Below, piece by piece: positions 1,871 through 35,338 of a DNA stretch of 64,000 bases. The stretch's first letter is position 1. Every line of letters begins with the position of its first letter. Location of the stretch: the NCBI GenBank assembly GCA_028278405.1, contig JANQEK010000015.1:1-64000 (forward strand), given 5' to 3'. The notes under the pieces are model-generated. The model saw only the letters and a list, made by a program, of their open reading frames with translations, did not search any database and had not been told where the DNA came from. The position numbers and the translations under genes are program-made. The DNA is from Nitrospinaceae bacterium (lineage in GTDB: Bacteria > Nitrospinota > Nitrospinia > Nitrospinales > Nitrospinaceae).

Positions 1871-1878
1871 GGTAAATT

Positions 1879-3123: not shown

Positions 3124-6100
3124 GCCATAAGGACAGTGAAGATGCGCTTGAAAATGCTGCCCTGGAGGTTTTTGACGAGTTGGACTGGGATGTTCTCAAC
3201 TGCTATGGAGAATTTGATCAGGGAAAAAGTTTTCTTGGACGTGATAATAAGAGTGAGGTTCTATTATTTGAAAAACTCCTTCCAAAATTAAAAGAGTTCA
3301 ACTCTTCCCTCCCAGAAACAGCCTTTAATCAAGCTATAGAAGAGTTTTCCCGCATACGCACGGCTATGGCTTTAGGGGCAGCCAATCAAGAAATCTACAA
3401 GCTACTTAAAAACGGTATTCGGGTGAAGGTTCCTAATCCCAATGGCCACGGCAATATTGATGAGATTGTCCGGCTGATTGACTGGGAGAACATTGGTAAT
3501 AACGATTTTTTCATGGCCCAGCAACTCTGGGTGGCGGGAGAACTCCACACTCGCCGTGCTGATCTGGTCGGGTTTGTGAATGGAATTCCCCTGCTGTTTG
3601 TGGAACTGAAAGCCTCCCACCGAAACCTAGAGGCGGCCTTCAATGACAATTTGCGAGACTACAAGGACACCATTCCTTACCTTCTGACCTATAACGGATT
3701 TATCATCCTATCCAATGGTCGAGAGGCTAAAATCGGTTCGGTTACGGCAGCCTTTGAGCATTTCTCGGAATGGAAGAGGATCAATGAAGAGGGAGAGAAG
3801 GGAGTGATCTCCCTGGACACTATGATCCGTGCCACCTGTGAGCCTTCCCGTCTCTTGGATATTGTCGAAAACTTCACCCTATTTATGAATACCAAAGGTG
3901 GCCTGGCCAAACTTCTGTCCAAGAATCATCAATATCTTGGTGTCAATAACGCTATTCAAAACTTTCAAGCCCTTCGGTCTTCAACTGAACCGAACGATAA
4001 AGGCCGGTTGGGAGTCTTCTGGCATACGCAAGGTTCCGGCAAGTCTGTTTCCATGATCAACTTTGCCCAGAAGGTGCTTCGCAAGGAATCCGGAAACTGG
4101 ACCTTTGTAGTGGTAACTGATCGGGATGATCTGGACACCCAGATTTATAAGAACTTTGCAAATTGTGGGGTAGTGACAGAGGAGGAAGCGCAAGCCGAAA
4201 GCTCCAATCATCTTAGGCAGTTATTAGGAGAAAACCATCGTTACGTCTTCACCCTGATCCAGAAATTTCGGACGGAAACAGGGGAAACCCATCCTGTTCT
4301 ATCGGAACGTGACGATATTATCGTTATCGTCGATGAAGCCCACCGAAGCCAGTACGACACTTTCGCTGTCAATATGAGAACGGCTTTGCCCAATGCATCC
4401 TTTATTGCTTTTACTGGAACCCCGTTGATTCAGGGAGAAGATGAGGTCACCCGTGACGTGTTTGGAGATTACGTCAGTATTTATGATTTCCGGCAGTCGG
4501 TGGAAGACAAGGCTACTGTGCCCTTGTTCTATGAAGGACGAATACCTGAACTGCAACTCACCAATCTCAACTTGGATAAAGACATTGAACAGGTGATTGA
4601 TGAGGCTGAATTAGACGAGGGCCAAGAAGAAAAACTGGAGAGGTATTTCGGACAGGAATACCACATATTGACACGGGAAGACCGGCTAGATCGGGTGGCA
4701 GAGGATATAGTCGAGCATTTCACAGGCCGAGGTTATCAGGGCAAAGCCATGATGATCAGTATCGACAAGGCCACCACCGTCCGCATGTACGATAAGGTCC
4801 AAAATTTCTGGCAAAAGAAAATTGAAGCATTACGCAGTGAAATAGAATTAGCCAAGACGGAGACCGAAAGGAAAGCTCTATCCGATCAGATCAAGTCAAT
4901 GCAGGACACGGATATGGCGGTCATTGTTTCTCAATCCCAGAATGAGATCGATGATATGCGTCAAAAAGGCCTGGATATCAGACCACATAGAGAGCGAATG
5001 AATAGGGAAGATTTGGAAGAAAAATTTAAGGACCCAGAAAGCAAACTTGGAATGGTTTTTGTTTGTGCTATGTGGATTACGGGATTTGATGTTCCTACTT
5101 GTTCTACCATGTACCTGGATAAACCCATGCGCAATCATACCCTAATGCAGACCATCGCCAGGGCTAATCGAGTGGCCCCAGGAAAGGAAAGCGGCTTGAT
5201 TGTTGATTATGTCGGAATTTTCCGCAACCTAGAGAAAGCGTTGTCTGTTTATGGCCCTGGGCGTGAGGGAGAAGTTAAAGGGACCTCTCCAGTGGAAGAC
5301 AAACAAGCACAGATTGAAAGATTAAGAGTTGCTCTGGGAGAGGCCAAGGAATTTTGTGCTGGGCTGGGAATAAACATTCAAGCCATATTGTCTGCAGTGG
5401 GATTTGAGCGGGAAAAACTGAAGATGGATGCAGTGGATGCTCTTCTTGAAAATGATGATATCAGGAACAAGTTTTTAAGCCTGTCTAATCTGGTAGTACG
5501 GCTTCATAAAGATATTAAACCCCATCCATCAGCTAATGAGTTTATGCCAGAGGTTATTATATTTTCTATTCTGGCCCAAACCATACGCTCCATATTGCCA
5601 GCCCCTGATATTTCTGCCGTGATGGAGCAGATTGAAGGGATACTGGATGAATCCATTGTCGCTGAAGAGTCAGCAATTTATCAACGAATGGGAGATGATG
5701 CAAAACTTGTAAATCTCTCAGAAATTGACTTTGAAGTCTTACAGAAAAAGTTTTCCAAGGACTACAAAAGGGCGAAAGTTCAAACCGAACGAGCCAAAAT
5801 AGAAGATAGAATCACCAGATTGGTCCAACTTAATCGGACCCGGATAAACTTTCTTGAGAAGTTCCAGCAATTGATTGAGGAATATAACGCAGGAGGGCTT
5901 GGTATAGACCAGATAATTGAAGAGCTGGCCAGGTTATCCCAATTGCTGAATGAGGAAGAAAAGAGGGCGTTGAAAAATCAGTTAAGTGAGGAAGAATTGG
6001 CGGTATTTGATCTTTTAACTAAACCCGACCCAACGCTGAAACCCAATGAGGAAAAGCAAGTAAGAGCAGTGGCCAAAAACCTAATAAAGGTGATTGAGGA

Positions 6101-6290
6101 ATTAGGTCTTATGCAAGGCTGGAAAACCCGTCAACAATCCCGCGCCAAAGTGAAGGTTGAAATTGAAAAGGCTTTGGATGGAGGGCTTCCCGAAGTTTAT
6201 GATCGCACCCTATTTTCCCGTAAGTCTGAATTGGTCTATCAGCACATTTTCGAGGCTTATTCAGGGGATGGGGTGAGCGTTTACCAATAA
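3120..6290 (+). CDS. hsdR: Type I restriction endonuclease subunit HsdR
   Basis: This is the ATP-dependent translocase and nuclease subunit. The N-terminal nuclease core is visible as RADLVGFVNGIPLLFVELK (PD-(D/E)xK type). Walker A GSGKS starts near residue 305, the DEAH box near 405, and helicase motif VI is in QTIARANRVAPGK. A C-terminal helical domain follows. The 1056-aa length is typical. The start codon overlaps the hsdS stop (ATGA), indicating translational coupling. All key motifs are present, so the enzyme looks active. Confidence 0.96.
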   Translation: MSHKDSEDALENAALEVFDELDWDVLNCYGEFDQGKSFLGRDNKSEVLLFEKLLPKLKEFNSSLPETAFNQAIEEFSRIRTAMALGAANQEIYKLLKNGIRVKVPNPNGHGNIDEIVRLIDWENIGNNDFFMAQQLWVAGELHTRRADLVGFVNGIPLLFVELKASHRNLEAAFNDNLRDYKDTIPYLLTYNGFIILSNGREAKIGSVTAAFEHFSEWKRINEEGEKGVISLDTMIRATCEPSRLLDIVENFTLFMNTKGGLAKLLSKNHQYLGVNNAIQNFQALRSSTEPNDKGRLGVFWHTQGSGKSVSMINFAQKVLRKESGNWTFVVVTDRDDLDTQIYKNFANCGVVTEEEAQAESSNHLRQLLGENHRYVFTLIQKFRTETGETHPVLSERDDIIVIVDEAHRSQYDTFAVNMRTALPNASFIAFTGTPLIQGEDEVTRDVFGDYVSIYDFRQSVEDKATVPLFYEGRIPELQLTNLNLDKDIEQVIDEAELDEGQEEKLERYFGQEYHILTREDRLDRVAEDIVEHFTGRGYQGKAMMISIDKATTVRMYDKVQNFWQKKIEALRSEIELAKTETERKALSDQIKSMQDTDMAVIVSQSQNEIDDMRQKGLDIRPHRERMNREDLEEKFKDPESKLGMVFVCAMWITGFDVPTCSTMYLDKPMRNHTLMQTIARANRVAPGKESGLIVDYVGIFRNLEKALSVYGPGREGEVKGTSPVEDKQAQIERLRVALGEAKEFCAGLGINIQAILSAVGFEREKLKMDAVDALLENDDIRNKFLSLSNLVVRLHKDIKPHPSANEFMPEVIIFSILAQTIRSILPAPDISAVMEQIEGILDESIVAEESAIYQRMGDDAKLVNLSEIDFEVLQKKFSKDYKRAKVQTERAKIEDRITRLVQLNRTRINFLEKFQQLIEEYNAGGLGIDQIIEELARLSQLLNEEEKRALKNQLSEEELAVFDLLTKPDPTLKPNEEKQVRAVAKNLIKVIEELGLMQGWKTRQQSRAKVKVEIEKALDGGLPEVYDRTLFSRKSELVYQHIFEAYSGDGVSVYQ

Positions 6291-8204: not shown

Positions 8205-8882
8205 ATGCGAGAAGCAGTTGGATATTTAAGGGTATCTACAAAAGAACAGGGTGCTAAAGGGAACGGCCTGGAGGTTCAGAAGGAAACCATTCAAAAATTT
8301 GCCAAGGCTGAAGGGTTTGAAATAGCAGAATGGTATGAGGACCGTGTTTCTGGGAAGGGTTTCAAGGATGCACTGGAAAAGAGACCAGGATTGGCCCTAG
8401 CATTAAGTCACGCCAAGAAACTAAAGCGGTCTGTGATTGTATCCAAATTAGATAGGCTCTCCCGTGATGTGGCTTTCATTAGCTCCTTGATGTCAGAAGG
8501 TGTCCCCTTCATTGTGGCTGAATTGGGAGTTGATACCGATCCCTTTATCCTCCATCTCTACGCCGCTCTATCTGAAAAGGAAAGACGGTTAATTTCCCAG
8601 CGGACCAAAGAAGGTTTAGCTCGTGTTAAGGCAAAGGGGAAAAAATTAGGCAATCGAACCAATCTAAGAAAGGCTCAGGAAAAGGGTATTCAAACCAACA
8701 AAAAACACGCTGACCAATTTGCTTCCTCTGTGCTTCCAATCATCCAGACTTTTCAACAGCAAGGTTTAAGCCAGAGGGCCATAGTGGAAGAATTGAACAC
8801 ACGCAAAATTCCCACTTCAAGAGGTGGATCTTGGCATCTCCCCACCCTCCAAAACATTCTAAAGAGAGCCTTATTTTATTGA
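8205..8882 (+). CDS. Serine recombinase / resolvase family protein
   Basis: The N-terminal resolvase domain has YLRVSTKEQ (catalytic Ser at about residue 11), [10 protein letters not shown] and the [20 protein letters not shown] helix typical of resolvases and invertases. A C-terminal DNA-binding helix-turn-helix follows ([24 protein letters not shown], about residues 185-210). At 225 aa it is the small type, not a large serine integrase. It may resolve or invert island DNA; the inverted repeat at 7917-7988 is a candidate site. It is transcribed from its own promoter. Confidence 0.9.
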
Positions 8883-11510: not shown

Positions 11511-11537
11511 AGGTTCATCTCCCCCCGCCTCCACCAA
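11511..11537 (+). other. att-like site resembling the tmRNA/tRNA 3' end
   Basis: AGGTTCATCT followed by CCCCCCGCCTCCACCA reads like the last part of a T-arm, the 3' acceptor strand, an A discriminator and the CCA end, as seen at the end of many tmRNA genes. The T-stem does not pair properly and no tmRNA body precedes it, so this is probably a partial duplication left by integration into ssrA. Integrase and island cargo lie to the left, consistent with a right-hand attachment site. The core recurs at 19024-19038. Confidence 0.5.
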
Positions 11538-11638
11538 GCGGCGAGCCGCCGCTGGCCATTTGGCTGCTACTTGACTAGACAAACCAACCCTTACTTCCAC
11601 GCGTAATAATCCAATAATCTTTGTATGGAGGTACCCTG

Positions 11639-12025
11639 ATGGTTAAAGAACTTACATCAAAACTATGGGATATGGCAAACGCGATTACTGCATTTTCAAT
11701 CGCGCAGGTAATCGCCTATTTATATCTTCTTACTAACCCCAATGTGAATATCGAAGGACTAAAGTGGATTATTTGCGTAGGGATTGTTTTTTTTCATGGC
11801 ATCTATCTGCTTGGTATTGGTGGGTGTCACAAAGCAATGCTTAAATTAGAAACTAGGTCAAAGAAGAAGCTTAATAAGGTGAGCGTTAAGATAAAACATG
11901 GACAACAATTCATCGTCGTATTGTTCGCCATACTCGCAATAATATTGACGGTATTTTATTCACATAATTTTGATCAACAAAATCCCTCTGTACATCAACT
12001 CAAAGGACTCGTAAATATAATTTGA
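11639..12025 (+). CDS. Small three-helix membrane protein, unknown function
   Basis: The start is the ATG at 11639 because GGAGG ends 7 bp upstream; a TTG 18 bp earlier is unlikely. The 128-aa product has three hydrophobic segments, roughly residues 15-32, 43-62 and 93-112, with a basic loop (KLETRSKKKLNKVSVKIKHG) between the second and third. It lies just outside the att-like site and converges on the dab operon. No family was recognised. Confidence 0.6.
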   Translation: MVKELTSKLWDMANAITAFSIAQVIAYLYLLTNPNVNIEGLKWIICVGIVFFHGIYLLGIGGCHKAMLKLETRSKKKLNKVSVKIKHGQQFIVVLFAILAIILTVFYSHNFDQQNPSVHQLKGLVNII

Positions 12026-12085
12026 TTCTCTCTAATATCGATTTCAACCTTACGCTGATCCCAAAAAGAAGAAGGATTAATCGGG

Positions 12086-12100
12086 GCGCTCAAAAAGCGC
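12086..12100. terminator. Short hairpin between convergent genes
   Basis: GCGCT-CAAAA-AGCGC lies between the plus-strand membrane protein and the end of the dab operon, with a T-run about 6 nt after it on the plus strand. It is a weak candidate terminator. Confidence 0.4.
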
Positions 12101-12109
12101 TTCATGTTT

Positions 12110-12436
12110 TTACGCGTCAAAATGAGCAGGCCGAAGAACGCTGGCGTCTATTACAAAAAGACTGCCTGAGTGACGTTCCAGAAATGGCTTGAGACCCGAT
12201 AAAATAGGATCTAGTTTTTCTTCAGGGACAATGGTCAAAACCATTATAAGGCTACTTGTGTCGTTAAACATCATGTGTCCTTCATGAAACCCACTATGCC
12301 CTTTCCCCGATAAATTGCTGAAAATCGTATAACCGCTGGCTTTAATCCGGTCAAGAACGTCCGTCACAAAATGCAGATGTTCTCCTTCAATAATGATCTT
12401 GATTTCTTTCATCGGATGAAGCTTCAAGGCGCTCAT
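12110..12436 (-). CDS. PII-like signalling protein of the dab operon
   Basis: A 108-aa ferredoxin-fold protein of the GlnB/SbtB-like group: MKEIKIIIEGEHLHFVTDVLDRI...GYTIF as first strand-helix-strand, a T-loop region GKGHSGFHEGHMMF, and a second half SLIMVLTIVPEEKLDPILSGLKPFL. It lacks the classical GlnB uridylylation Tyr context. It follows dabA by 30 bp, and PII-like genes are known companions of inorganic-carbon transporters, so it probably senses a nucleotide and tunes DIC uptake. AAGGAG precedes the chosen ATG. Confidence 0.8.
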   Translation of the reverse strand: MSALKLHPMKEIKIIIEGEHLHFVTDVLDRIKASGYTIFSNLSGKGHSGFHEGHMMFNDTSSLIMVLTIVPEEKLDPILSGLKPFLERHSGSLFVIDASVLRPAHFDA

Positions 12437-12466
12437 AATATTTCTATACTCCTTAACAAAATTATT

Positions 12467-15400
12467 TTACTGAATAGGTTGCCAATCATTATTCCATTGA
12501 AAGAGGGAAAATTCCATAGTTTCGGGATCTAATGCGACAATATGGAGCCATTGGTTCATCGTCAATCGCTGCAAGATCGTATGTCGCAAAATGATGGTCT
12601 CTATCATTTTTAACGGAGCTTCTATTATAACAAATAGCCGCATGGGTTCATGGTAAGGTTTCTCGCCATCGAATATCGTTTGGATAGGAAGACCGACACA
12701 AAGATCACTCTGGGTGCCAAACATGACACCTACACGACCCACCACATTATGATACGCTTTACTTCCCGCTCCATAAACCTCAGAGTCAACGGTGGAAAAA
12801 TAGTGCTCCATATTAATCCATTGTCCTACGATCATTGGAGCGGTCATGATAATTTCTAAATATTTTCCTTCTGGATCCTTTGAAGAATCATAGGAATGCA
12901 AAAAAGTCCGGGCTTCCAAATTTACCCCTTTGGTCAAAAGCCGCCGCCCCGCGATAAAAGCCGTGTGCCGGGAAAGCCCCCATTCCGGCCGAACCTGCGA
13001 CCAATCGATGCTCCGTGTCTTTGTCCGTTTTAAAGCGCTGAAAACTCCATTGGTGTCAGACTCGTCTGGCATACGGGCCAACCGTTCCCTGCCGTTTTTT
13101 TCGCCGGCTTCCAGGAGATCGGCCTGCAACCTGGTTAAATCTTTTCGATGAGTGGCCGGGACGTCTTCCAAATCAAATAGCTCCACCTCGTCTGTTGTCG
13201 TGTCGTGTTGCCCGGGAAGAAAATGCGTATCATCAGGAATCACCAGACCCTTCTCAGCAAGTAGTTTACGAACCTCGGGTTTGTTGGCCATAACCGCCAG
13301 GGCTCGTGCGTTGGATACCCCATGGTTACCGCCGCACGCACCGCAATCCAATGCAGATTCGTAGGGATTGTTATCTGAGGTACTGCCATGACCGCAAAGC
13401 AAAATGAGCCGGGCAAATGTTTTAAATCCTAAAACCCTTAATGCCGTTTCCACGTAATTGACCTGCTCTGCAACGGTAAATCCTGCCTGAGTGATCCGTT
13501 GCATTTGACGATCCACGTCTCGTGGGTTCACATCAAACTTACTTTGGAGTACCTGGCTAAAACGGTCGATATCCGATTTGGTCCACTGTAACAATTGGCT
13601 CAATTCCTGGTTTTCAGGGTTGTCGGCCTGAACTTGATCCATCGCCATTTTTCGCAAATGTTCGACCTGTGCGTGAGACACGGTGGCGCCCAGGGGACCG
13701 TATTGCTCAATCAAAAGCTTGTAAATAACCGCCCGATGCTTAGAGGCAACCATTTCGTGAGCCTCTTCCCGTTCAATTTTGTCCACAGTCAGTGTTGTTC
13801 CTATAGGAATAGCCAAACGCTCTTTCAACCATGCAACGGCTCTGTTGAACCATTTGGGGCGCAACGTTTGGCCGAAAAGCCTAAACCCAAAGAACCAACC
13901 AATGGCTTCCACCATGACGTATGGGGTGATAACGTTCTCTTTCAAATCATGCAGCAATGTATGACCCGCCTTAGCGAGTTGGTGTCCCTCTAAAAACTCT
14001 TTTGCTGCCTTGGCTTGATAGGCGCGAGGAATTTCTTTAACGACGTGATTGGGCTTCAAAAGAACCGGACATTGGTCTGTCTGGTGTTCGTTCGTAAACC
14101 CTTGATAGCATATGGGAACCCCAAAAAAACCGGCAAATCCAAACGTCTCGTTGCCTCCAACTTCTTCAAGGTGCCTTCTGAACCCCTCTGACCGAACATC
14201 GATGCAAAAAATGGACTGGGACAGCGGACGTGATTCCGGATTCTTTTCCTCCGCCGTGTTGTTCTTCTTCAATTTCTCAATATTGGGAGAAAACTCTTTC
14301 ACAAAACCCTTGATGAAACTGGATTCTAAAGCCTTCAGCCAAACAGGTCCATACTTTGATTCGGGAAACTTCTCGACCCAGTCAAGTAGAGTGTCTAATG
14401 ACATGGAATCACTTTTCAAAACATCCTGCATAGAAATATTCAATGATTGGGTGAGATGCAATAGGATCAAGCTCTGAACATCAGTTTTTTGTTGTTTCCG
14501 AATTTTTTCCCATTTTGAAATCAATTCTGAATCGCATCGATTAAGGTCTTCTATACGCAACGGTTCCTGTATGAACAGGGACATATCCATGTTCTCTTCG
14601 ATTTCTTCTGGCAGTCCTCTTACTTCATGATCTTTGTATAGACCGTATCCAACGGAGAAATTATTTAAATATGCCCGTATCGAAGAATAGCTTCCAGGAA
14701 TGCCCAATTTAGAGTTGCAGGCCAAACTCACCAGTTCTCTTTCATAAAAAATCCGGACGGCCATATACTTGATAAGGTCAATCGGATAGGCGTTTTGCCA
14801 CTCATAATCTACCTGTTCCGAGCGCCATTTGAGGAACCCCGTCCACCCGGACAATTGAGCCAAATGCAGGGTGAAATAATCGATCCACAAATTCTTGGGT
14901 ATGGATAGCATGGACATACTTTCCAAAATGGCATCTTCCGGCCGATCGGGTAAGTTTTTAATCTTGTTTTTCCAATCAGGAATACCCAGCAAAAAGCCGG
15001 AAGCATCTTCCTGGGCTAACGCTTTCCAACCACCGTAAAAAGTTTTTTCTCTTAAAGGCATGTTCCAACAAGCATGTCCTTCGTCGAGAAATCCGCTAAC
15101 CCATTTGATAACTTCGCTGTCGATTTGATGCTGTATATTTGTTCCAAGTGATTGATCGCACCATTTCCCAAGTGTGTACTGTGTGGCCAGTTCTTCTTGT
15201 TCCCGCTCTGCAAAATCCAGCAGGGACATTTTTAGCTCTTTGGTTTTCGATAATCCTTGGATTTTCTCGATCAGATCTTGTACTTCTGTTTGATTTTGGA
15301 AAGATTCCAAAACCGTCGGAGCCACGTCTGTTGCGACTTCTCCCGTACCGTTAAGAAAAATGGTTTTCAAAACTTCAAAATGAGAAACCTGTTTATCGCC

Positions 15401-15715
15401 TATATTAATAGTTGCATCTTTTGAAATATCCTTTAAGGCTTCATTAAGGGCGTCATCTGTTATTCGTCCTTCCTTAACATAATCACGATACTCTTCATTA
15501 GGTAGAAAACCGCGCCCACCCAAAAACCGTTCAGCCTCCTTAATAGCTTTTTCAAAATGAAAATGTTCCAGCCCGTGAAGCGGATTATGATGGATAAAAG
15601 TCTTCATCGGCCAGTAATGAGAAATGGGTTCGCCAGCCAGGTTCACGAACGAACGCAATTCTATCCGCTGGGATTCAACTGACATTTTGGTTTCTTTTTC
15701 TTCGACGGTAGGCAT
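12467..15715 (-). CDS. dabA: DabA, zinc-binding inorganic carbon transporter subunit (DUF2309)
   Basis: This is the cytoplasmic, beta-carbonic-anhydrase-like subunit of the DAB inorganic-carbon accumulation complex, thought to convert CO2 to bicarbonate vectorially using the proton motive force. Four expected zinc and active-site residues can be placed: Cys504 and Asp506 in FCIDVRSEGF, His776 in LLCGHGS and Cys791 in LDCGACGG. The 15-residue His-to-Cys distance equals that of the characterised Halothiobacillus protein. At 1082 aa it belongs to the long form. It lies 44 bp after the NuoM-like gene and 30 bp before the PII-like gene. Confidence 0.93.
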   Translation of the reverse strand: MPTVEEKETKMSVESQRIELRSFVNLAGEPISHYWPMKTFIHHNPLHGLEHFHFEKAIKEAERFLGGRGFLPNEEYRDYVKEGRITDDALNEALKDISKDATINIGDKQVSHFEVLKTIFLNGTGEVATDVAPTVLESFQNQTEVQDLIEKIQGLSKTKELKMSLLDFAEREQEELATQYTLGKWCDQSLGTNIQHQIDSEVIKWVSGFLDEGHACWNMPLREKTFYGGWKALAQEDASGFLLGIPDWKNKIKNLPDRPEDAILESMSMLSIPKNLWIDYFTLHLAQLSGWTGFLKWRSEQVDYEWQNAYPIDLIKYMAVRIFYERELVSLACNSKLGIPGSYSSIRAYLNNFSVGYGLYKDHEVRGLPEEIEENMDMSLFIQEPLRIEDLNRCDSELISKWEKIRKQQKTDVQSLILLHLTQSLNISMQDVLKSDSMSLDTLLDWVEKFPESKYGPVWLKALESSFIKGFVKEFSPNIEKLKKNNTAEEKNPESRPLSQSIFCIDVRSEGFRRHLEEVGGNETFGFAGFFGVPICYQGFTNEHQTDQCPVLLKPNHVVKEIPRAYQAKAAKEFLEGHQLAKAGHTLLHDLKENVITPYVMVEAIGWFFGFRLFGQTLRPKWFNRAVAWLKERLAIPIGTTLTVDKIEREEAHEMVASKHRAVIYKLLIEQYGPLGATVSHAQVEHLRKMAMDQVQADNPENQELSQLLQWTKSDIDRFSQVLQSKFDVNPRDVDRQMQRITQAGFTVAEQVNYVETALRVLGFKTFARLILLCGHGSTSDNNPYESALDCGACGGNHGVSNARALAVMANKPEVRKLLAEKGLVIPDDTHFLPGQHDTTTDEVELFDLEDVPATHRKDLTRLQADLLEAGEKNGRERLARMPDESDTNGVFSALKRTKTRSIDWSQVRPEWGLSRHTAFIAGRRLLTKGVNLEARTFLHSYDSSKDPEGKYLEIIMTAPMIVGQWINMEHYFSTVDSEVYGAGSKAYHNVVGRVGVMFGTQSDLCVGLPIQTIFDGEKPYHEPMRLFVIIEAPLKMIETIILRHTILQRLTMNQWLHIVALDPETMEFSLFQWNNDWQPIQ

Positions 15716-15759
15716 AATTTTAGCCTGTTAGACCTCTCAAAAAATAAACAATTGATTCG

Positions 15760-16992
15760 CTAGTAGAGAACTCCACTATAACCAGCGCCAATTAATAATG
15801 CGATAATCGCAACAAACTCCGTTATCCGTAGATCAGAATAGGGCACATTCGTTCGCGCAGTTCCAAAAGCGGTTTGATGAAGCATTTGCAGGAAAAACCA
15901 GCCTCCTCCCAACCAAACCGCAAAATACATCAAAAAAATATTGATAAATTTCACTTCCAAAGTGTCGATGGTTGGCATAATGGTCAGGCCGGTAAAAATA
16001 GGCACCATTGGAAGAAACAGAGCGAAGCTCACAAGAAGAACCATAGCAGTGCCAAGTCGGGGCATTGGAGAAGCAAGCCCTGGAAGCTTTCCAATTATTT
16101 GCCATCCATAGCGATGTCGAACAAACGAAAATGCGAGACCGATACCTCCCAGCACAAACGCTACGGCTATACCAAAACTAATTCCCCATTTGGAAAAACT
16201 TGGAAAAATATTAAGCAACCCCCACACAAGCGATACATGAGCTACCGTAGCCGATGCGATGTACATATTGATTTGCTTTTGTCCCAGGGTAGCTAAAGAA
16301 GCATAAAAAGCGCTTATAAGGGCGAACACACTTATAACCAAAAGCATTTCAGTAGTCAGTGATGGATATATCATTTTCAATTCCACCAATCCCACAGTCA
16401 ACCAAACGACAATCCAAAAACTTGAAAGAGTTCCTTTAGCGTATTTAACCGTGTCAACAAATGGGAGATGAAAAGGAACCAGTGGCAGGAAAGTGACCGT
16501 TAGAAACAAACCGGAAAACATTCGTAAGGTTTCCCCGCCGAAGGAAGAACTTAAAGAGAGAATGATCGCAATGATGAAATGAACAATAATGAGGGTTGTT
16601 CGAAAAGAACGGTGTTTTTCGCGAGCAAGGAACAATGCGGCAAAACCCAGAAGACCACAAAGAAAAAGCCTGCCGGCAAGCCCCTGGCCCAGCAACGTGC
16701 CCAGAGCCAACCCCAAAATTATCATGCCTGAAAAGTAAACTTCCGAAGCCTGTTGCGATTCTCCTTGAGAAAAAATGACGCAAAAACCCGAGAGAAGAAC
16801 TGCAAAAGCCAAAAAGTTAATCGGTGAATCTGTTTCGACAGCAAAGAACAGAAACACGCCTGAAGCTATAATCGTCGCCAAACTAATCAATCTAATATTG
16901 GAAATTGAGATATGCACAACTTTCCATACAATACCCACAACAATCGGGAAAAGGGCGAGAATAATTGGAAGAGAATGTTGATTATCTATCAT
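15760..16992 (-). CDS. NuoM/MrpD-like membrane protein of the dab operon
   Basis: A 410-aa protein made almost wholly of hydrophobic helices (about 12), with weak resemblance to the antiporter-like subunits of complex I and Mrp. It has KYAKGTLSSFWIVVWLTVG and LATLGQKQINMYIASATVAHVSLVWG, the latter recalling the LGYSSVAHMG region of NuoM/NuoL. It lies 18 bp after dabB and 44 bp before dabA. Two-gene DAB systems lack it, so it is probably an extra proton-path or anchoring subunit. Confidence 0.75.
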   Translation of the reverse strand: MIDNQHSLPIILALFPIVVGIVWKVVHISISNIRLISLATIIASGVFLFFAVETDSPINFLAFAVLLSGFCVIFSQGESQQASEVYFSGMIILGLALGTLLGQGLAGRLFLCGLLGFAALFLAREKHRSFRTTLIIVHFIIAIILSLSSSFGGETLRMFSGLFLTVTFLPLVPFHLPFVDTVKYAKGTLSSFWIVVWLTVGLVELKMIYPSLTTEMLLVISVFALISAFYASLATLGQKQINMYIASATVAHVSLVWGLLNIFPSFSKWGISFGIAVAFVLGGIGLAFSFVRHRYGWQIIGKLPGLASPMPRLGTAMVLLVSFALFLPMVPIFTGLTIMPTIDTLEVKFINIFLMYFAVWLGGGWFFLQMLHQTAFGTARTNVPYSDLRITEFVAIIALLIGAGYSGVLY

Positions 16993-17010
16993 TTTATTCT
17001 AATCGCGCTT

Positions 17011-18711
17011 TTAAAAACGATGCGCAACCTTTTGAGCCAGGCGCAATATGCTATTGCTCCATCGAACATAAATCAGATCCACATAGCACCGATTAATTAG
17101 AAAAATATACAATTTTTTTCTAACTGAAACGAGCCAATTTGAAATAAATATTTTTTGCCCCTTGGCATTGGTATAAAGAATAAACCATCCTAATAAAATG
17201 AGCGTAGTGGCTGTTAATATGATCATGTCAAAGACGATCGGATTAAATGCCGCAGCTACAAAGTAACTTTCAGCTACGCCCGGCCCAGGATAAAGGTAAT
17301 GCGTGAATTCCTCCCCAGCCCACAAATAAATAAATACGATGAAGAACAAAGCTGCGATCATCGTGCATGCGACTTTCCAGGAATCCACAGCCTGGAGACG
17401 ATATAAACTAAACATGACCTGGGAAGCCGTCACCCAGCTGAAAAAGAGAAAAATAACCGCCCCATGCGCGTCTTTCAAATGTATCTCCAGCATCCCATGG
17501 GCGATCATGAGAATCACAAGCGGCATCACCAGGGTAACAACCAAACCGGTCACCCAGGTTAATTGGCCCGAAGATTTCTCCTCTTTGATTTCATGTTCTG
17601 CAGAATGTGGAATCTTTGGTTCTTCACGCGATGCATGAATGCCTGTTCCCGCTCCCAAAAACAATGACGCTTTAAAAAGACCGTGTGCGATTAAGTGAAA
17701 AATAGCCAGCGCAAATGCCCCTAGCCCACATTCCATAATCATGTAACCCATTTGCCCCATCGTGGAAAACCCAAGAGTTTTCTTAATATCGTTTTGGGCA
17801 AGCATCATGGAGGCGCCGAGCAGAACTGTCAGAACCCCTATCAAAAATACAATGTGAAGGGTTGCCGATGAGAGAGCATAAAAAGGAGCTAATCGGTTTA
17901 ATAAAAATCCGCCGGCATTGATAATTCCAGCATGCATAAGAGCCGAAACGGGGGTGGGGGAATCCATGGTGTCTGGCAACCACACGTGTAAAGGGAATTG
18001 AGAAGATTTGGCCATCGCGCCAACAAAAATGAGAACCCCAATCAGAGAAATGATGCTGATTTCAAAATGGATTCCCGGTAATAAAGAAACCATGTGAGGG
18101 TTTTCTGCCGCCGCTTTGAAGAGATCGGTAAATTCTAAAGTTCCAAAATATTTATAGGCAAGAAATAATCCAAAGAGAAAACTCACGTCACCGACACGAT
18201 GGACGAAAAAGGTTTTGAACGCATTGCGGCAGGCATCGGGATGGGAATAATTGAAATTAAGAATAAGATAAAGCGCCAAACTTAATAACTGCCAAAGCAT
18301 AAACAACATGAACAAGTTTGGGCTGGAAACGAGCGCAAGGATAACGAAGGTCATAAAGCTCAAAAGCGCGAAAAATCGAGCATAACCTTGATCACCTTCT
18401 AAATACCGGACCGAATAAACATGGATGACAACGCTGACACTCGTGATCAACAGCATCATAACGGCCGTGAGCCGATCGACCAGCATGCCAACTTTTAATA
18501 TGGCGGAGCTTTCAGAGTTTGACGTCCAGAAAACGAATTCGACCGTTCCCTCGACGCTTACGTAATAAAGAGTCCAGGCGGAAAGAAGAAAGGAAATACA
18601 GGTCGCAATAACCCCTACCTTAGCCACATGAGCCAACATGCGGTTGCCAAAGATCCAAATGAAAATCCCAGCCAGGAGAGGAAAGAGGAGAATAAGAATC
18701 GGAACGGTCAT
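17011..18711 (-). CDS. dabB: DabB, NuoL/MrpA-like proton-conducting subunit
   Basis: This is the membrane partner of DabA, a proton-transporting member of the complex I antiporter-like family (566 aa, about 14 helices). Recognisable blocks are FKTFFVHRVGD, AKSSQFPLHVWLPDTMDSPTPVSALMHAG, KKTLGFSTMGQMGYM and HLIAHGLFKASLFLGAG. Where complex I NuoL has the key TM5 Glu (WE...), this protein reads LWQLLSLALYLI, so that Glu is replaced. It is the first gene of the minus-strand operon dabB/NuoM-like/dabA/PII-like. No promoter was confidently placed. Confidence 0.9.
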   Translation of the reverse strand: MTVPILILLFPLLAGIFIWIFGNRMLAHVAKVGVIATCISFLLSAWTLYYVSVEGTVEFVFWTSNSESSAILKVGMLVDRLTAVMMLLITSVSVVIHVYSVRYLEGDQGYARFFALLSFMTFVILALVSSPNLFMLFMLWQLLSLALYLILNFNYSHPDACRNAFKTFFVHRVGDVSFLFGLFLAYKYFGTLEFTDLFKAAAENPHMVSLLPGIHFEISIISLIGVLIFVGAMAKSSQFPLHVWLPDTMDSPTPVSALMHAGIINAGGFLLNRLAPFYALSSATLHIVFLIGVLTVLLGASMMLAQNDIKKTLGFSTMGQMGYMIMECGLGAFALAIFHLIAHGLFKASLFLGAGTGIHASREEPKIPHSAEHEIKEEKSSGQLTWVTGLVVTLVMPLVILMIAHGMLEIHLKDAHGAVIFLFFSWVTASQVMFSLYRLQAVDSWKVACTMIAALFFIVFIYLWAGEEFTHYLYPGPGVAESYFVAAAFNPIVFDMIILTATTLILLGWFILYTNAKGQKIFISNWLVSVRKKLYIFLINRCYVDLIYVRWSNSILRLAQKVAHRF

Positions 18712-19023
18712 CGCCTATATTTGGTCAACACCTAGTTTGATGTTTAGGTTCATCAAATATTCTAATGCATCTTTCCAATTCAACAACTAAAAACTAACAG
18801 AATTACTTATAGTTTATTGATGACCCTATGCAAAAAACGATTCAAAAAACCATCCATTTTTTCCAATGTCAAAAGCATGAAAAATAGAATAATCGAAATA
18901 GTTCCACTTCCCAAAATAATCGGTCAAAAAAATGGCTTTATAGGGCATCTTTGGGGGCAACTGGAAAAATTGGAACTGGTTAACGCTTTTAAAAATGGTG
19001 GGATAGAAAACCTGCTCGGTAGT

Positions 19024-19038
19024 CCCCGCCTCCACCAA
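19024..19038 (+). repeat. Second copy of the tmRNA-end-like 15-mer
   Basis: CCCCGCCTCCACCAA is identical to 11523-11537 and lies in the same orientation. Together the copies bracket the membrane protein and dab operon (about 7.5 kb). A chance exact 15-bp match over this distance is improbable. As at the first site, no intact tmRNA or tRNA body precedes it. Confidence 0.55.
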
Positions 19039-19060
19039 TTCTTGATCCAAGCGGACCAAT

Positions 19061-19095
19061 AAGCTCCACAGAACCAGGCAAAATGGGGCTTTTTT
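19061..19095 (+). terminator. Terminator-like hairpin after the second repeat
   Basis: AAGCTCC (19061-19067) pairs with GGGGCTT (19085-19091, one G-T wobble) and is followed by a run of T. It lies 23 bp after the CCA-like end of the repeat, where a tmRNA terminator would be expected. No upstream plus-strand gene that it would serve was found. Confidence 0.45.
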
Positions 19096-19177
19096 GTTGT
19101 CCTCAGGTCCGGTAATATAGGTCAAATGAAAATGGGTTGATCCGATTCAAAAGTATCCCTTTTAATGGGTTTTTGCC

Positions 19178-22100
19178 ATGAAGGATTCTGATAAAAAACA
19201 GCGCCTTCCATCTGCAGCACCCCCCTCTCTCAAACCCAAAAAATCACGCTTATTGTTGAAATTACTTCTTGGTCTTGTCGGCCTGTTCGCTCTTCTGATT
19301 GTTTTGATCCTGTCTGTCGACCTCAATACGTTTCGCGAGCCGGTGGCAAAAGCCATCTCACAAGCTACAGGCATGAAAGTCAGTATTGAGCATCTTGGTT
19401 GGAGCTTCTCCCCAGGATTAAAAATCGATTGCAAGGGTGTGCAGGTGTTTTCCGGCGAAACAAAGGAAGAACTGGTATCCACAAAGGAGTTACTGATCAG
19501 CTTGAACTGGCTGCCTCTGCTGGAAAAACGGGTCGTTGTCGATAGCATTTCCCTTGTCGGACCTGTCCTCAAAATTGCGACCAACCCTTCCTCCGCAAAT
19601 GAGCCATCACCTCCTCTGCAAAAACCATCGGGTGCTGGTGTCAATTCAAACTCTTCTTCTCCCGCATCAAATGGGGCCTCTTCTCCTGACCCGCTGCAAC
19701 CCGTGCGCGAATTCCTTAAAAATCCTAACTTTACCTTAACTGCAATTAATCTGGTTGCGGGACGGGTGATTCTCCAGAATAAACAAACCGGTAAAGAAAT
19801 CGCTTTAGATACTGAAGGCCGGATGCAAATCGAAAGAGATAAGACGCGGGTCGGCTTGACTCTGGAGGATATCAAACTGGGCACGAGCAATTTAAAAGTT
19901 GAAGGCGAGATTCACACAGATGATTTTTTGTCGGCCAACTCGCCTATGCAAACCCACATTCGTGTAAATGCGTTCAGCGTGTCTGATCTACTTCCAGTTT
20001 TGGAATGGGTTCCTGAAACCCGCGATGCCATTTACCGGAAATTAAAACTCAAGGGGAATGTCCAAACACTGGAATTAAAATTGAAAACTCCCATCGATTC
20101 TGTGATGGACGTGGATTCCCTTATGAGTTCAGCGGACGCTACGCTAATTCTGAAGGGAGACAAACTTTCACTGGTCCAGTATGGGAACACCGTTTCCGCC
20201 TCAACGCTGGATACGGATGTTCGGTGGAAGAACCAACAATGGGAGCACAAAATTGTTCTAGGTATTTTGGGAGGAAACGTTGAATCCCAGGGTCAGATGG
20301 CCTTAAGAAAGGGTCCTAAAAAAGCCGATGACTGGAAAATGGTTTCGAAGTTGATTCTTGAAAAAATCAACCTGCGTGACTTAAAAACCCAATTCTTCAG
20401 CCAAACCGCTCAATTTCCGGAAAAAGGAACGATTTCGGCCAAGATCTACGTTCAGGGTCCGGCTCTTCATCCAGAGCTGATTCGAGGGACAGGAAGTATC
20501 AGCACGCAGGATCTGGCCATTCCTGTGCAGGGTACTGTTGTCTCCCTGGCCCATGTGGAAGGAAAAGGAGAATGGCTGGGAGACCAGTTGAATCATCAGA
20601 TTCAACTGGCTGCTCTGGGCGGCGAGACGACTGTGAAGGGAAATTTAAGATTCAAAAAGGATCGTCAGGGGCAATGGGACCCGGTGATCGATTCTGAAGT
20701 GACTCAAAAATCCATTCAACTGGCTGACCTTAAGCCACTGGTTCAGAAGAACTGGTTTCCTGAGAAGGGAACTTTAACCGGCAAAATGCGTATTCTCGGG
20801 CCGGTGTTGCGTTCGCAATTGCTTCAGGCGAAAGGAGAAATAGAAATTACGGATACCGCCGTCCGGCATCAGGAAACCGATGTTCACCTGGCCTCCATTA
20901 AAGGGACCGGCCGGTGGTTCCAGAATCAGCTGGCACATGACGTGAAAATGAAAGTTTTTGATGGCAGTGTACGCATTAAGGGAAATCTGAAACTAAAAAA
21001 GGCCAAAAAAGGGGACCTGAATCCCTTGATCGATTCTGATGTCATTACCCAGTCGATTCAACTGCCCAGCCTTCAGCCTCTGGTGCAAAAAACCTGGTTT
21101 CCAAAAAAAGGTGCATTGCAGGGGACCGTCCACATATCGGGCCCGCTGTTGCAGCTGGATGCCATAAAGAGTAAGGGTAAACTCAAATTTGCAGATCTTG
21201 AAGTTGCGGTGAACAATGCCTCCCTGTCCATCCCTGCAGTGGAGTTTGACGGTACATGGGCCAATAACCGGTTGATCCATGATGTCAAAGTGAAAGTATT
21301 GGAGGGAAATATCCAGACTAAAGGGCAACTGCTCTTGAAAAAGGATCGCAAGGGCAAACGTGACACCGTACTCGACTCGAAGATATTCATTAAACAGGTT
21401 GCCCTCAAACCGTTAAAACCTTTAGTCGCTAAAAACTGGTTTCCGCATCAAGGAACTTTGGATGGAACCCTTCAAGTGCGGGGCTCTGTGATGCGACCTC
21501 AGGCAATGAAGGCGAACGGAAAACTGAGAGTCCGGAATGCCGCCACCGAATTTGGAGGTAAAAATATCCCTCTGTCCCAAGTGGAGGGTCAGGGCTCCTG
21601 GCAAAAGGATAATTTAAAGCATCACATAATAGCCAAAATATTTGGCGGAGAAGTTTCTCTGAAGGGGAACCTGATTTTCAGTAAAAACAAACAGGGCGAG
21701 TTGGACCCCATGATACATTCCAGCATTAAGCCGAAGTCCATTCAACTGTCTAAACTCCGGACATTGATTGGGAAAGACACCCTTCCCTTAACGGGAGCCG
21801 TCACCGGGGCCATTCATCTGAAAGGTCCGGTTCAAAGGTTTTCAGAAGTGGCTATAACCGGAAAACTGACCGGGAACAAGATTCGAATGAAACTTCAGGA
21901 AAAACCGTTTGCCATTAAAAAAACGTTATTAGCATTTAATCCCATGCCAAAAAACCATCTTGAAGTCGGTTTCGACTTGAGCGATATCTCAATCGGCGAT
22001 TACAGGTTCCAGAAATCCCTTGGGCGCATGGTGTATTCACAAAAGAGCGTTGAATTGACCCATGGAAAGATCTGGCCTAAAACAGGGGAGGTTTCTTTAA

Positions 22101-22807
22101 ATGGAAATTATGAGTTTGAAACCAAGGATTATAAACTCAAATTTACCGGCAATGGACTTCGAATGGAAGATTACAAAGGGGAGTTTATTGAAGGACCCTT
22201 GGGTTTTAAAGGAAATTTGTTTGGAAAAGTTTTAGCCAAGGGATTCAAGAAAGGGCTTTCCGGCAAGGTGCAAGTCCATTCTGAAAATAGTAAATTGCTG
22301 AAGACCGGAAATACTCTCGCTCAGATCGTCAACACCTTGAATTTAAAATTTTTAAAAGGGGCTGAAAAGGGGGTTGCGATCGATTTCCTCGGTGGGGACT
22401 GTGAAATAAAAAACGGTGTTGTAACCACGAAAAACTTCAGAATGCTCAGCCCCGTCCTGAAGGTATGGCTCAATGGCAACGCGGATTTGTCCGAAGAAAA
22501 AATAGATGCGGTAGCCACGGCTATCCCCAAACAAAGCACAGAAAAGATTTTCCGGAAAGTGGATAAGGAAAAAGAGCGCCTGAAAAAGAAATTAAAAAAG
22601 GTACCCGTACTCGGTGAAATCTTCGGCGGGTCAGAGGAACAGGGGGGACTGGTGGATGATATCTTCAAGTCGGTTCCAATATTTGGAGAAGAAAAAAAGG
22701 ATGGGCAACCAAGGAGCTTGCTGAAGTTTCACTTTGATATCGCTGGCTCTTTTGACAAGCCCAAAGTAAAATATGCTCCCGAGAAAACTTTAGGACTCAA
22801 ACAATAG
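19178..22807 (+). CDS. AsmA-family envelope protein with five internal repeats
   Basis: A 1209-aa protein anchored by one N-terminal helix (about residues 26-48) with a large periplasmic part. It opens with the AsmA signature NTFREPVAKAISQATGMKVSI and ends with an AsmA-like C-terminal domain (IVNTLNLKF...DFLGGDCEIKNGVV). Between about residues 390 and 950 there are five repeats of roughly 115 residues, each around I-x-L-x-x-L-x-x-L...FPxKGTLxGxxxIxGPxL. AsmA relatives are large bridge-like proteins implicated in phospholipid transport and outer-membrane homeostasis. The YCII gene follows after 7 bp. Confidence 0.88.
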   Translation: MKDSDKKQRLPSAAPPSLKPKKSRLLLKLLLGLVGLFALLIVLILSVDLNTFREPVAKAISQATGMKVSIEHLGWSFSPGLKIDCKGVQVFSGETKEELVSTKELLISLNWLPLLEKRVVVDSISLVGPVLKIATNPSSANEPSPPLQKPSGAGVNSNSSSPASNGASSPDPLQPVREFLKNPNFTLTAINLVAGRVILQNKQTGKEIALDTEGRMQIERDKTRVGLTLEDIKLGTSNLKVEGEIHTDDFLSANSPMQTHIRVNAFSVSDLLPVLEWVPETRDAIYRKLKLKGNVQTLELKLKTPIDSVMDVDSLMSSADATLILKGDKLSLVQYGNTVSASTLDTDVRWKNQQWEHKIVLGILGGNVESQGQMALRKGPKKADDWKMVSKLILEKINLRDLKTQFFSQTAQFPEKGTISAKIYVQGPALHPELIRGTGSISTQDLAIPVQGTVVSLAHVEGKGEWLGDQLNHQIQLAALGGETTVKGNLRFKKDRQGQWDPVIDSEVTQKSIQLADLKPLVQKNWFPEKGTLTGKMRILGPVLRSQLLQAKGEIEITDTAVRHQETDVHLASIKGTGRWFQNQLAHDVKMKVFDGSVRIKGNLKLKKAKKGDLNPLIDSDVITQSIQLPSLQPLVQKTWFPKKGALQGTVHISGPLLQLDAIKSKGKLKFADLEVAVNNASLSIPAVEFDGTWANNRLIHDVKVKVLEGNIQTKGQLLLKKDRKGKRDTVLDSKIFIKQVALKPLKPLVAKNWFPHQGTLDGTLQVRGSVMRPQAMKANGKLRVRNAATEFGGKNIPLSQVEGQGSWQKDNLKHHIIAKIFGGEVSLKGNLIFSKNKQGELDPMIHSSIKPKSIQLSKLRTLIGKDTLPLTGAVTGAIHLKGPVQRFSEVAITGKLTGNKIRMKLQEKPFAIKKTLLAFNPMPKNHLEVGFDLSDISIGDYRFQKSLGRMVYSQKSVELTHGKIWPKTGEVSLNGNYEFETKDYKLKFTGNGLRMEDYKGEFIEGPLGFKGNLFGKVLAKGFKKGLSGKVQVHSENSKLLKTGNTLAQIVNTLNLKFLKGAEKGVAIDFLGGDCEIKNGVVTTKNFRMLSPVLKVWLNGNADLSEEKIDAVATAIPKQSTEKIFRKVDKEKERLKKKLKKVPVLGEIFGGSEEQGGLVDDIFKSVPIFGEEKKDGQPRSLLKFHFDIAGSFDKPKVKYAPEKTLGLKQ

Positions 22808-22814: not shown

Positions 22815-23129
22815 ATGCCAAACTTTATGATTGCTTATTATGGAGGCAACCAACCGAGCTCGGAAGAAGAGAGAATGGCCCAGATGGAAAAGTGGCAGGC
22901 CTGGGTTAAAGGTCTTGGAGATAAGATTGTTAATCCGGGAACGCCGTTGCCGATTTCAAAACTTATAACGTCGAATAATGTTCAGGACGATAATGATCCA
23001 AACTCGATGAAAGGATTCGCAGTGGTTAAGGCAGAAAACATTGATGCTGCCGTAAAAATTGCGCAATCTGATCCCTTTCTCGGAAATGGCGGAACCATTC
23101 GTGTTTCTGAGATGATGGAGATGAAATAA
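22815..23129 (+). CDS. YCII-related domain protein
   Basis: A 104-aa ferredoxin-like-fold protein: MPNFMIAYYGG at the start, the helix EERMAQMEKWQAWVKGLGDKI, a GFAVVKAENIDAAVKIAQSDPFL segment and a final GTIRVSEMMEM strand. This matches YCII/DGPF-type small proteins, whose biochemical role is mostly unknown. It has an AGGAAAA ribosome site and follows the AsmA gene by 7 bp, so it is probably on the same transcript. Confidence 0.8.
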   Translation: MPNFMIAYYGGNQPSSEEERMAQMEKWQAWVKGLGDKIVNPGTPLPISKLITSNNVQDDNDPNSMKGFAVVKAENIDAAVKIAQSDPFLGNGGTIRVSEMMEMK

Positions 23130-23934: not shown

Positions 23935-24318
23935 ATGAAATCTAAGAAGAAGTTTGTCATTGTGGGGCTCGTGCTGGCGCTTATACTATTGTCGGTTGTG
24001 GGGGTGATGTTGTATCAGAAGGATACCCAAACCGTACAGCAGGCCAAGGTGGTCAAGGCTTATTTTGTGAATTTCTGTATGGAAAACGCGCGCTATCCCA
24101 AAAAAGAGGAGTTCGAAAAGCGCTTCGCCAAACTGGCGGCAGACCCCGACTGGTTCTACTGGCCTGCAGAAGATTTGACCCGGGGCACTTTCCAGTATCC
24201 GATGACGCTGCCTGTCCCCTCCGCTCCCGGCGATTCCAAATTTTCTGAGTTCATGCCCGTCATTTATTCCTACGCTGTGCGCAATCCCTGCCAGACATTT
24301 TCCAGAGAACTTTTATAA
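23935..24318 (+). CDS. Hypothetical membrane-anchored or exported protein
   Basis: A 127-aa protein with a basic N-terminus and one hydrophobic helix (about residues 7-27), then a soluble domain with two Cys (NFCMENARYP and NPCQTF), a layout reminiscent of type IV pilin-like proteins without their processing motif. No family was recognised. It converges with the PhoX-like gene, whose stop is 7 bp away. Confidence 0.6.
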   Translation: MKSKKKFVIVGLVLALILLSVVGVMLYQKDTQTVQQAKVVKAYFVNFCMENARYPKKEEFEKRFAKLAADPDWFYWPAEDLTRGTFQYPMTLPVPSAPGDSKFSEFMPVIYSYAVRNPCQTFSRELL

Positions 24319-25576: not shown

Positions 25577-25721
25577 CAATTCAGAACGCTCCTTGTCAAA
25601 TTTTATAAGACCAACGCAGGTCGATCTCCAATGCTACATGCTCCATAGCCTCGATATCAAGGCACTTTTTCCTCCGCACTTCGGGTCTTTATTAATAATC
25701 CGGCAAGAGTTATCCTTAAGC

Positions 25722-26456
25722 ATGTGGCCGGTCACGACTTTAATCGTTATTGCAGTTTGCCTGATGATTCTTGAACGGATCATCCCCGATCAACGCCTGC
25801 CGCATGTTCCCGGCTGGTGGATACGTGTGGTCCTTATCAATCTTGTGCAATTGGGACTGGTTGTTTTGGGGGGCGTTACCTGGGATCGATGGCTTCAACG
25901 ATGGAGCCTGTTTGATCTGTCCGCTTTACCAAACCTTTTCGGGGCCGCACTGGCCTACCTGACCATTACCTTTGCATTTTACTGGTGGCACCGATGGCGG
26001 CATGACATCAATTTCCTGTGGCTTCTTACCCATCAGTTTCATCACAGCCCGCAGAGGATCGAAACGATCACCTCTTTTTATAAGCACCCCCTGGAGATTT
26101 TGTTGAATTCGATCATCATTGGTGCCATCACCTATACCGGCCTGGGTCTATCTCCGGAAGGAGGAGCATGGGTGATGGTAATGACTGGAGTTGCTGAGTT
26201 TTTTTATCATATGAATATTTCCACACCGCGTTGGATTGGAAATTTTATACAACGACCTGAAAGTCACCGTATTCACCATCAAATGGGTAAGCATTACAAT
26301 AATTTTGCGGATCTCCCAGTATGGGATATGTTATTCGGCACATTTATTAATCCGGTCACAACCACCAACCCATGTGGCTTTAAGGAACCCCGGGAGCAGC
26401 AATGCATTGACATTCTTTTATTCAAAAATGTTAACGGGCCTGTCCCAAAAAAATGA
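25722..26456 (+). CDS. Sterol desaturase / fatty acid hydroxylase family protein
   Basis: An integral-membrane di-iron oxygenase of the fatty acid hydroxylase superfamily. The His clusters are all present: HRWRH, HQFHH and HRIHH, embedded between four hydrophobic helices. I place the start at ATG 25722 (MWPVTT), where the first helix begins; an in-frame ATG at 25638 is possible but would overlap the divergent promoter region. The substrate is unknown. Its stop overlaps the next start by 4 bp. Confidence 0.85.
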   Translation: MWPVTTLIVIAVCLMILERIIPDQRLPHVPGWWIRVVLINLVQLGLVVLGGVTWDRWLQRWSLFDLSALPNLFGAALAYLTITFAFYWWHRWRHDINFLWLLTHQFHHSPQRIETITSFYKHPLEILLNSIIIGAITYTGLGLSPEGGAWVMVMTGVAEFFYHMNISTPRWIGNFIQRPESHRIHHQMGKHYNNFADLPVWDMLFGTFINPVTTTNPCGFKEPREQQCIDILLFKNVNGPVPKK

Positions 26457-26935
26457 AAAAACGCCGTATCTTATACATCATTCTTTTTTTACTCGGCTCT
26501 CTACAAATCATCGGGGTCGCCACAGGATCTCGCGCAGTCAAAGGAATCGGGCTGGCTTCGGTGGCCTCTCCTTTACCTCTCGTATTTTCTCACTTCAGGG
26601 GAATCGAAACATTCGCTGCTGATTTTTATATTCGATTGAGAAAAGACGGAAAAGTCGTATACGATTCTCAAATCACCTCCGAGTTGTACGAAAAATTGGA
26701 AGGCCCTTACAATCGACGCAATATTTATGGCGCTGTATTTGCTTATGGGCCTGTGTTGAGCCAACCTTCAGAAAAAATTCTGGTCGATTCTGTATTAAAA
26801 CAGGGTATATGTTTTGATGGTCCCTTGGTTGCAGAATTCGGGTTGCCTGCTGAATTTGATACTGTTGAAATTGAAGTTCACACAAAAACGAAGAACCAGG
26901 AGCAGACTCATTCTTTTGGAGTTCGTTGCGAATGA
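26453..26935 (+). CDS. Hypothetical exported protein coupled to an HTTM-DCC gene
   Basis: A 160-aa protein with an N-terminal signal or anchor (about residues 5-23), then a soluble domain with VVYDSQITSELYEKLEGPYNRRNIYGAVFAYGP and a second strand-rich part. Its start overlaps the desaturase stop (ATGA) and its stop overlaps the next gene's start (ATGA). This coupling to the membrane redox protein that follows suggests a shared task. The pattern recalls small partners of HTTM proteins, but no family was confirmed. Confidence 0.7.
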   Translation: MKKRRILYIILFLLGSLQIIGVATGSRAVKGIGLASVASPLPLVFSHFRGIETFAADFYIRLRKDGKVVYDSQITSELYEKLEGPYNRRNIYGAVFAYGPVLSQPSEKILVDSVLKQGICFDGPLVAEFGLPAEFDTVEIEVHTKTKNQEQTHSFGVRCE

Positions 26936-28146: not shown

Positions 28147-28179
28147 CTTTCCAAATTAATAATTCTCAATATTCAGAAT

Positions 28180-29095: not shown

Positions 29096-29141
29096 TGGCC
29101 TATAATGTACTCTTTGGCCTAATGAACCAGGAGGAGATTGC

Positions 29142-29342
29142 ATGAAAAATAAAGCACAGGGAATTGTTATGCTGGCGGCAGGAGGAGCGCTGTTGTTTTG
29201 GGGATACAGCATTTCTCAATCGGTGACTGCCAAAGTGAGCCAGGCTATGAATGGCGGCATGCCCGACAAAGCCATGATCATTATGATTCTCGGTGGGCTG
29301 TGCGCGGCTTTCGGATTTTTCAAGCTGTTTAAATTACGGTGA
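29142..29342 (+). CDS. DUF3185-like small membrane protein
   Basis: A 66-aa protein with two hydrophobic helices: GIVMLAAGGALLFWGYSISQS and AMIIMILGGLCAAFGFFKLF. The G-Y-x-x-S-x-S motif after helix one is the DUF3185 pattern. A clear GGAGGAG lies ahead of the ATG. It follows the HxlR-associated membrane gene by 46 bp and may be co-transcribed. Function unknown. Confidence 0.7.
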   Translation: MKNKAQGIVMLAAGGALLFWGYSISQSVTAKVSQAMNGGMPDKAMIIMILGGLCAAFGFFKLFKLR

Positions 29343-29519
29343 TATTATTCCTTCTGTCCAACCTATCGATATATACCTATCTATCTAATTTTATTGAGTT
29401 ATCACATTCTTCCGCCTGTTTTGACCATTCCTTTTCTTATTCTTTCCTAATAGAGTCCTAACATTCTCCCGGTAGTCTGTCCCTGCATGAAACAAACAAT
29501 TGACTAAGGAGAATGACCG

Positions 29520-30467: not shown

Positions 30468-30479
30468 TAATAGGCAATC

Positions 30480-32976: not shown

Positions 32977-32993
32977 TAAAAAGCGGATCTATT

Positions 32994-33656: not shown

Positions 33657-33751
33657 TTCCCCGCCATATTCGATTCTGGTATTATATCTCCTGTAATTTC
33701 CTGGATTTCTATCCAAAGTCCAATTATTATTTAATTTTTCAAGGGACGATC

Positions 33752-34111: not shown

Positions 34112-34120
34112 AGAAAACGG

Positions 34121-34531: not shown

Positions 34532-34632
34532 TGATAGGTATCCAATATTCTAATAATTTTACATGAAAACTTCCGTGACATTGTCTCAATTTCTCTATAG
34601 AATCGGCACTTCATCGCAAAGGATTGCTATTT

Positions 34633-35196: not shown

Positions 35197-35338
35197 ATCC
35201 TCTCCTCATACAAAATTCTTGTTTCCCCCCTTCACAACCGGGTTTTTCTTGTTGTATTATATGGCCGAAAAATCGCCCTCAAATAAGGGTTATCAGTCAC
35301 TGACCTCTGCCGGTCCATTTTCCCGAATTTGAAAATTT

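Follow-up and report, generated by a model that had tools for sequence, protein, structure and literature searches.

How did an operon for carbon uptake come to lie between two short direct repeats? DAB is a CO2/bicarbonate-uptake system, and the dab operon studied here lies near the start of contig C25 (JANQEK010000015.1) of G000, the genome of a marine-type (Nitrospinia) bacterium of the Nitrospinaceae. The window, which is the first 64,000 nt of that contig, contains two exact copies of the 15-mer CCCCGCCTCCACCAA, at 11523-11537 and 19024-19038. As the initial annotation had described, they have the same orientation, both being on the + strand, and they flank the dab operon on either side. 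Allowing up to two mismatches adds no further match in the window (shuffles predict 0.13), and these are the only two exact copies in the 3.16-Mb assembly. Two copies with one mismatch elsewhere, on contigs C24 and C25, fall within protein-coding frames and were taken as chance. With a probability of roughly 0.84, we read the region as a tandem array of two units inserted at the 3' end of ssrA, the gene for transfer-messenger RNA (tmRNA).

The repeats were compared with ssrA of five congeners and of the wider order. A search of the G000 assembly did not find its own ssrA; the Rfam tmRNA matches that were checked are transfer RNAs (tRNAs). Five congeners yielded an ssrA; its 3' end reads ...TTCCCCCCGCCTCCACCA, and the gene terminates GGTTC(G/A)ATTCCCCCCGCCTCCACCA in all of them. 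Both boundaries match congener ssrA over 14-17 exact nt. Copy 1 shares 17 (11520-11536) and also the GGTTC of the T-arm (11512-11516). Judged by their sequence, the boundary repeats are the 3' end of ssrA:

11512-11536, + strand: copy 1, a fragment of the ssrA T-arm/acceptor 3' end, read as the attachment-site scar between two units from its match to congener ssrA
19024-19037, + strand: copy 2, read as the original chromosomal ssrA 3' end, detached from its gene body (14 exact nt)

The proposal that the string is a tmRNA 3' end is thus borne out by the congener ends, which match both copies. Neither copy has an RNA body, as had been claimed, and neither ARAGORN nor Rfam detects an intact tRNA or tmRNA in the window. 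Repeats that arose by chance, or that belong to a dispersed short family with no relation to ssrA, would find some footing in the genus-recurrent palindrome directly 3' of copy 1. This explanation is barely credible given just two exact copies in 3.16 Mb, their match to ssrA ends and the terminator homology behind copy 2. The palindrome itself, AGCGGCGAGCCGCCGCTGGC at 11537-11560, resembles a repetitive extragenic palindrome (REP). Similar REP-like elements recur across the genus, and one also lies 3' of ssrA in G002. The likeness of G002 to the DNA 3' of copy 1 was considered as a common element end, a reading weakened because the similarity is mostly the palindrome.

The DNA behind each copy distinguishes the native end from the scar. 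When 5,328 window segments were scored for similarity to the DNA behind ssrA in nine relatives, the 72 nt 3' of copy 2 came first, with a mean score of 14.4 against an average of 7.3 (standard deviation 0.8) over all segments and with the T-run in register. No similarity to the terminator DNA of relatives was found 3' of copy 1. The native right flank consists of:

19038-19110, + strand: remnant of the native ssrA downstream/terminator DNA (rank 1 of 5,328; aligned to G025, G017, G033 and G003)
22815-23129, + strand: YCII-like gene, with a homologue behind the ssrA 3' end in congener G007
23935-24318, + strand: open reading frame (ORF) of the native flank, with homologues 139 bp (G002), about 660 bp (G005) and about 1,800 bp (G003) 3' of ssrA in these congeners

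Because terminator-like DNA lies behind copy 2, this copy is taken as the ssrA end native to the chromosome, and all DNA from the gap before the window to 19023 would therefore have been added between ssrA and its terminator. G002, G003 and G005 have ssrA and no island, ssrA is joined to the terminator in relatives, and G005 is colinear with window positions 29141-46292. An ORF of 1,209 codons resembling AsmA/YhdP (19178-22807) lies between the terminator remnant and the native YCII gene. It is possibly a further insertion, since it is missing at the equivalent position in G007 and its best relatives are only 29-44% identical.

These comparisons also bear on whether dab is ancestral at this site, with the left island as the sole true insertion and the scar at 19.0 kb produced by rearrangement. 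The gene dabA is indeed common, being present in 22 of 41 genomes of the order, but none of the relatives examined has dab at ssrA, so that the proposed synteny check likewise shows the locus not to be conserved there. Furthermore, G005 lacks dabA altogether although it is 95% complete, in relatives ssrA and the copy-2 terminator are already found together without an intervening dab, and the native terminator follows copy 2 rather than copy 1. An ancestral dab is accordingly very unlikely.

Where, then, is ssrA? DNA upstream of ssrA in G005 aligns to contig C4 of G000 through its last base (86139), and C4 ends 3.8 kb before the expected ssrA start. At its very start the window lies within a tyrosine integrase gene, of which just the final 102 codons remain. 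The absence of ssrA from the assembly is explicable because C4 stops short of it and the window starts inside the cut integrase. In the simplest reading, the unassembled stretch between C4 and C25 would contain ssrA and the missing part of the integrase.

The segment to the left of copy 1 is the left-hand island that the initial annotation had recognized by its integrase, hsd genes and recombinase, all of which were identified:

2-310, + strand: C-terminal end of the tyrosine integrase, cut by the start of C25 (PHROG integrase families, E 4.6e-8)
323-6290, + strand: hsdM, hsdS and hsdR, a type I restriction-modification system carried as cargo (Pfam, PADLOC)
8205-8882, + strand: serine recombinase of resolvase/invertase type (PF00239, E 6.6e-29)

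The integrase fragment has a weak PF00589 match at C25:59-241 with visible HxxR, GH and Y motifs. The island also carries a TIGR04255 gene. The second unit, 11538-19023, spans 7.5 kb and contains one small ORF and the dab operon:

11621-12025, + strand: small ORF of 134 codons that is not common to other dab loci (weak PTPLA match below the cut-off)
12015-18745, - strand: conserved dab block, predicted to be mobile; other dab loci are homologous no further than these edges
12110-12436, - strand: PII-like protein gene, the last of the operon (PF00543, E 2.3e-22)
12467-15715, - strand: dabA (PF10070, E 1.9e-260)
15760-16992, - strand: gene for a NuoM-like membrane subunit of 410 amino acids, conserved in the operon by sequence comparison
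17011-18711, - strand: dabB (NuoL-like), the first gene of the operon (PF00361, E 8.6e-58)

DabA and a NuoL-like DabB are thus encoded in one operon, and the gene order is the same in relatives. With scars at both ends, and with neither recombinase nor transfer genes among its contents, the unit has the make-up of a cis-mobilizable element. Since it lacks an integrase of its own it was not classed as an autonomous integrative element.

Could a single composite island have brought hsd and dab together in one integration, in which case copy 1 would be a relic of an earlier fusion inside it? In favor, a single integrase remnant is visible, and the dab unit has none. However, the parts differ in G+C content, 39.1% for the left island against 43.2% for the dab unit (45.0% in the native flank), and integrase-less dab units stand alone at other tRNA genes. 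We consider a composite island unlikely. Because copy 1 ends the left island and copy 2 is original, the dab segment is better described as a second, integrase-less unit at ssrA.

A tandem array of this kind could arise as follows. A site-specific recombinase would cross the attachment site of an element (attP) with ssrA at its T-arm/acceptor end. A replacement 3' end supplied by the element would keep the tmRNA whole, the displaced end would remain as a scar, and repeated insertion would stack units. From left to right the array would then consist of an intact ssrA in the gap, the left island with its tyrosine integrase, hsdMSR and serine recombinase, the copy 1 scar, the 7.5-kb dab unit, copy 2 with the original ssrA end and terminator, and the native chromosome. 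Being without a recombinase, the dab unit either lost its own integrase or was moved by the enzyme of another element; it may never have had one and may have moved in trans or by accretion with its neighbor. We infer the order of insertion, the intact ssrA in the gap and the action of a recombinase on the scars.

Serial insertion at ssrA appears to be common in the family because of similar patterns in two other members. On contig C169 of G007, an intact ssrA is followed by a 1.8-kb unit, which has two ORFs but lacks an integrase, and then by a slightly decayed second ssrA 3' end. Contig C63 of the same genome starts with a third ssrA 3' end, followed by homologues of the window's YCII gene, the ORF at 23935 and 25681-28150. 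In G009, a near-copy of the ssrA end lies 265 bp 3' of ssrA. The very small unit of G007 (L038:7510-9300) encodes a PRiA4_ORF3-like protein and one further ORF.

The dab locus of the window was compared with 13 others, which share one conserved four-gene block. Where contigs reach, the limits of homology to the window fall at 12015-12135 and at 18479-18745, and the flanks of the loci mostly do not match one another. Remnants of tRNA genes border several of these loci. In G033 an intact tRNA-Arg(TCT) is followed by dab, whose operon is divided between two contigs, and by an identical tRNA-Arg 3' half. In G007 an intact tRNA-Lys(CTT) is followed by dab and a tRNA-Lys 3' fragment matching at 38/47 nt. 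G026 has a tRNA-Arg 5' half, dab, one ORF, a tyrosine integrase of 355 amino acids and an intact tRNA-Arg; this complete-looking unit illustrates an integrase-bearing version of the dab element. On one side only, G001 has a decayed tRNA-Lys-like end, and in G025 the 3' half of a tRNA-Thr lies next to a P4-type integrase, about 1 kb away from dab. Since the 5' half is restored in G026 and the 3' half in G033 and G007, different enzymes probably carried the same cargo. At the candidate empty site of the G026 unit in G033, alignment is confined to the tRNA and a few bases beyond it, and the right flank was not confirmed. For the G007 unit, the DNA 3' of the tRNA-Lys fragment was compared with the tRNA-Lys sites of G000, G002 and G005, and none of them matched it.

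Other dab units at tRNA genes support the suggestion that dab is a tandem second unit, with the caveats that the integrase that placed it was not identified and that its order of arrival is our deduction. Several observations weigh against the two-unit array at ssrA. The ssrA of G000 itself was not seen, and the comparison rests on congeners. Copy 1 deviates from ssrA in the T-loop and copy 2 deviates upstream of its 14 matching nt; such differences are expected if the sequence is element-derived or decayed, but they are not proof of either. Neither the window ORFs nor Pfam revealed an integrase or recombinase between the two scars. Finally, in a survey of 15 dab loci, 9 had no tRNA or tmRNA scar within 1.5 kb, 3 of these 9 being readable on one side only.

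Protein identities show horizontal spread of the dab operon. DabA proteins of G001, G018, G025 and G026, which represent three families, are 92-93% identical, while RpoB is 76-78% identical between those families. DabA of G000 is 68% identical to that of its congener G001 (RpoB 92%) and 79% identical to that of G013, a member of another family (RpoB 67%). The presence of the same operon at other tRNA genes in relatives indicates that the DAB carbon pump probably travels between bacterial families as island cargo. Somewhat better than even, in our estimate, is the broader proposal that the four-gene DAB block of Nitrospinota is recurrent plug-in cargo of unrelated tRNA- or tmRNA-targeting recombinases, moved between families, often without an integrase and dependent on neighboring islands. 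A scan of IMG/VR for close relatives found no dab on viruses. Plasmids do carry distant DAB genes: 123 plasmid records contain relatives of DabA, none of which reaches 60% identity. A DabA-like stretch at 34.5%, which may be host DNA, was found in OR849901.1, an unannotated Staphylococcus phage record of 5.9 kb from a phage collection.

The architecture of such islands is known from the ssrA islands of Dehalococcoides and from cis-mobilizable elements, to which we liken this locus with other recombinases and other cargo. Among the Dehalococcoides islands are 15 without an integration module, for which the status of cis-mobilizable elements was proposed (PMC3146451). As with the islands there that include vcrABC, a niche-defining operon is the cargo and many islands have no integration module (PMC3146451). 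Unlike here, the integrase in Dehalococcoides is DsiB, a CcrB-like serine recombinase (PMC3146451); the left unit of the window combines part of a tyrosine integrase with a smaller serine recombinase, and the DAB operon serves as cargo. Attachment sites at both ends, the lack of an own recombinase and an integrase-bearing neighbor also recall cis-mobilizable elements and island accretion (PMC3146451), with the neighbor as a putative helper. The additive flexible island of Ca. Methylopumilus likewise grew by serial insertions marked by tRNA 3' end repeats, in that case of its final 20 bp in tRNA-Lys(ctt), but host, target and cargo differ (PMC10872708). Prochlorococcus tycheposons are similar as tRNA-targeted cargo elements of marine bacteria with nutrient-uptake genes, although membership is not claimed (PMC10872708, PMC11389934). 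In the open-licence literature, which was partially covered, no report of DAB as cargo of such islands was found.

Gain and loss of the carbon-uptake pump in chemolithoautotrophs is usually argued from gene presence alone. The insertion sites, scars and near-complete units visible here allow DAB gain to be ordered, its vehicles to be named and its mobility to be tested. If island transfer is correct, inorganic-carbon uptake would be carried on islands and patchily distributed within one class, in a manner comparable with the dehalogenation genes of Dehalococcoides.

Some further features of dab loci were observed. The purE-purK genes adjoin dab in G008 (L103), G025 (L106) and a Nitrospirales metagenome-assembled genome (L096), with dab just 3' of purK in varying orientation; these are three of the nine scar-less loci or their kin. 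In G036 (L107) a direct repeat of 299 nt (83%), formed by a gene 3' end, brackets dab at 5438-5736 and 13283-13581. The tRNA-Lys(CTT) site of G000 is also split over contigs, C14, C6 and C16, each with a tRNA-Lys 3' end, which suggests islands at that site too. Contig C6 begins with a second, different dabA.
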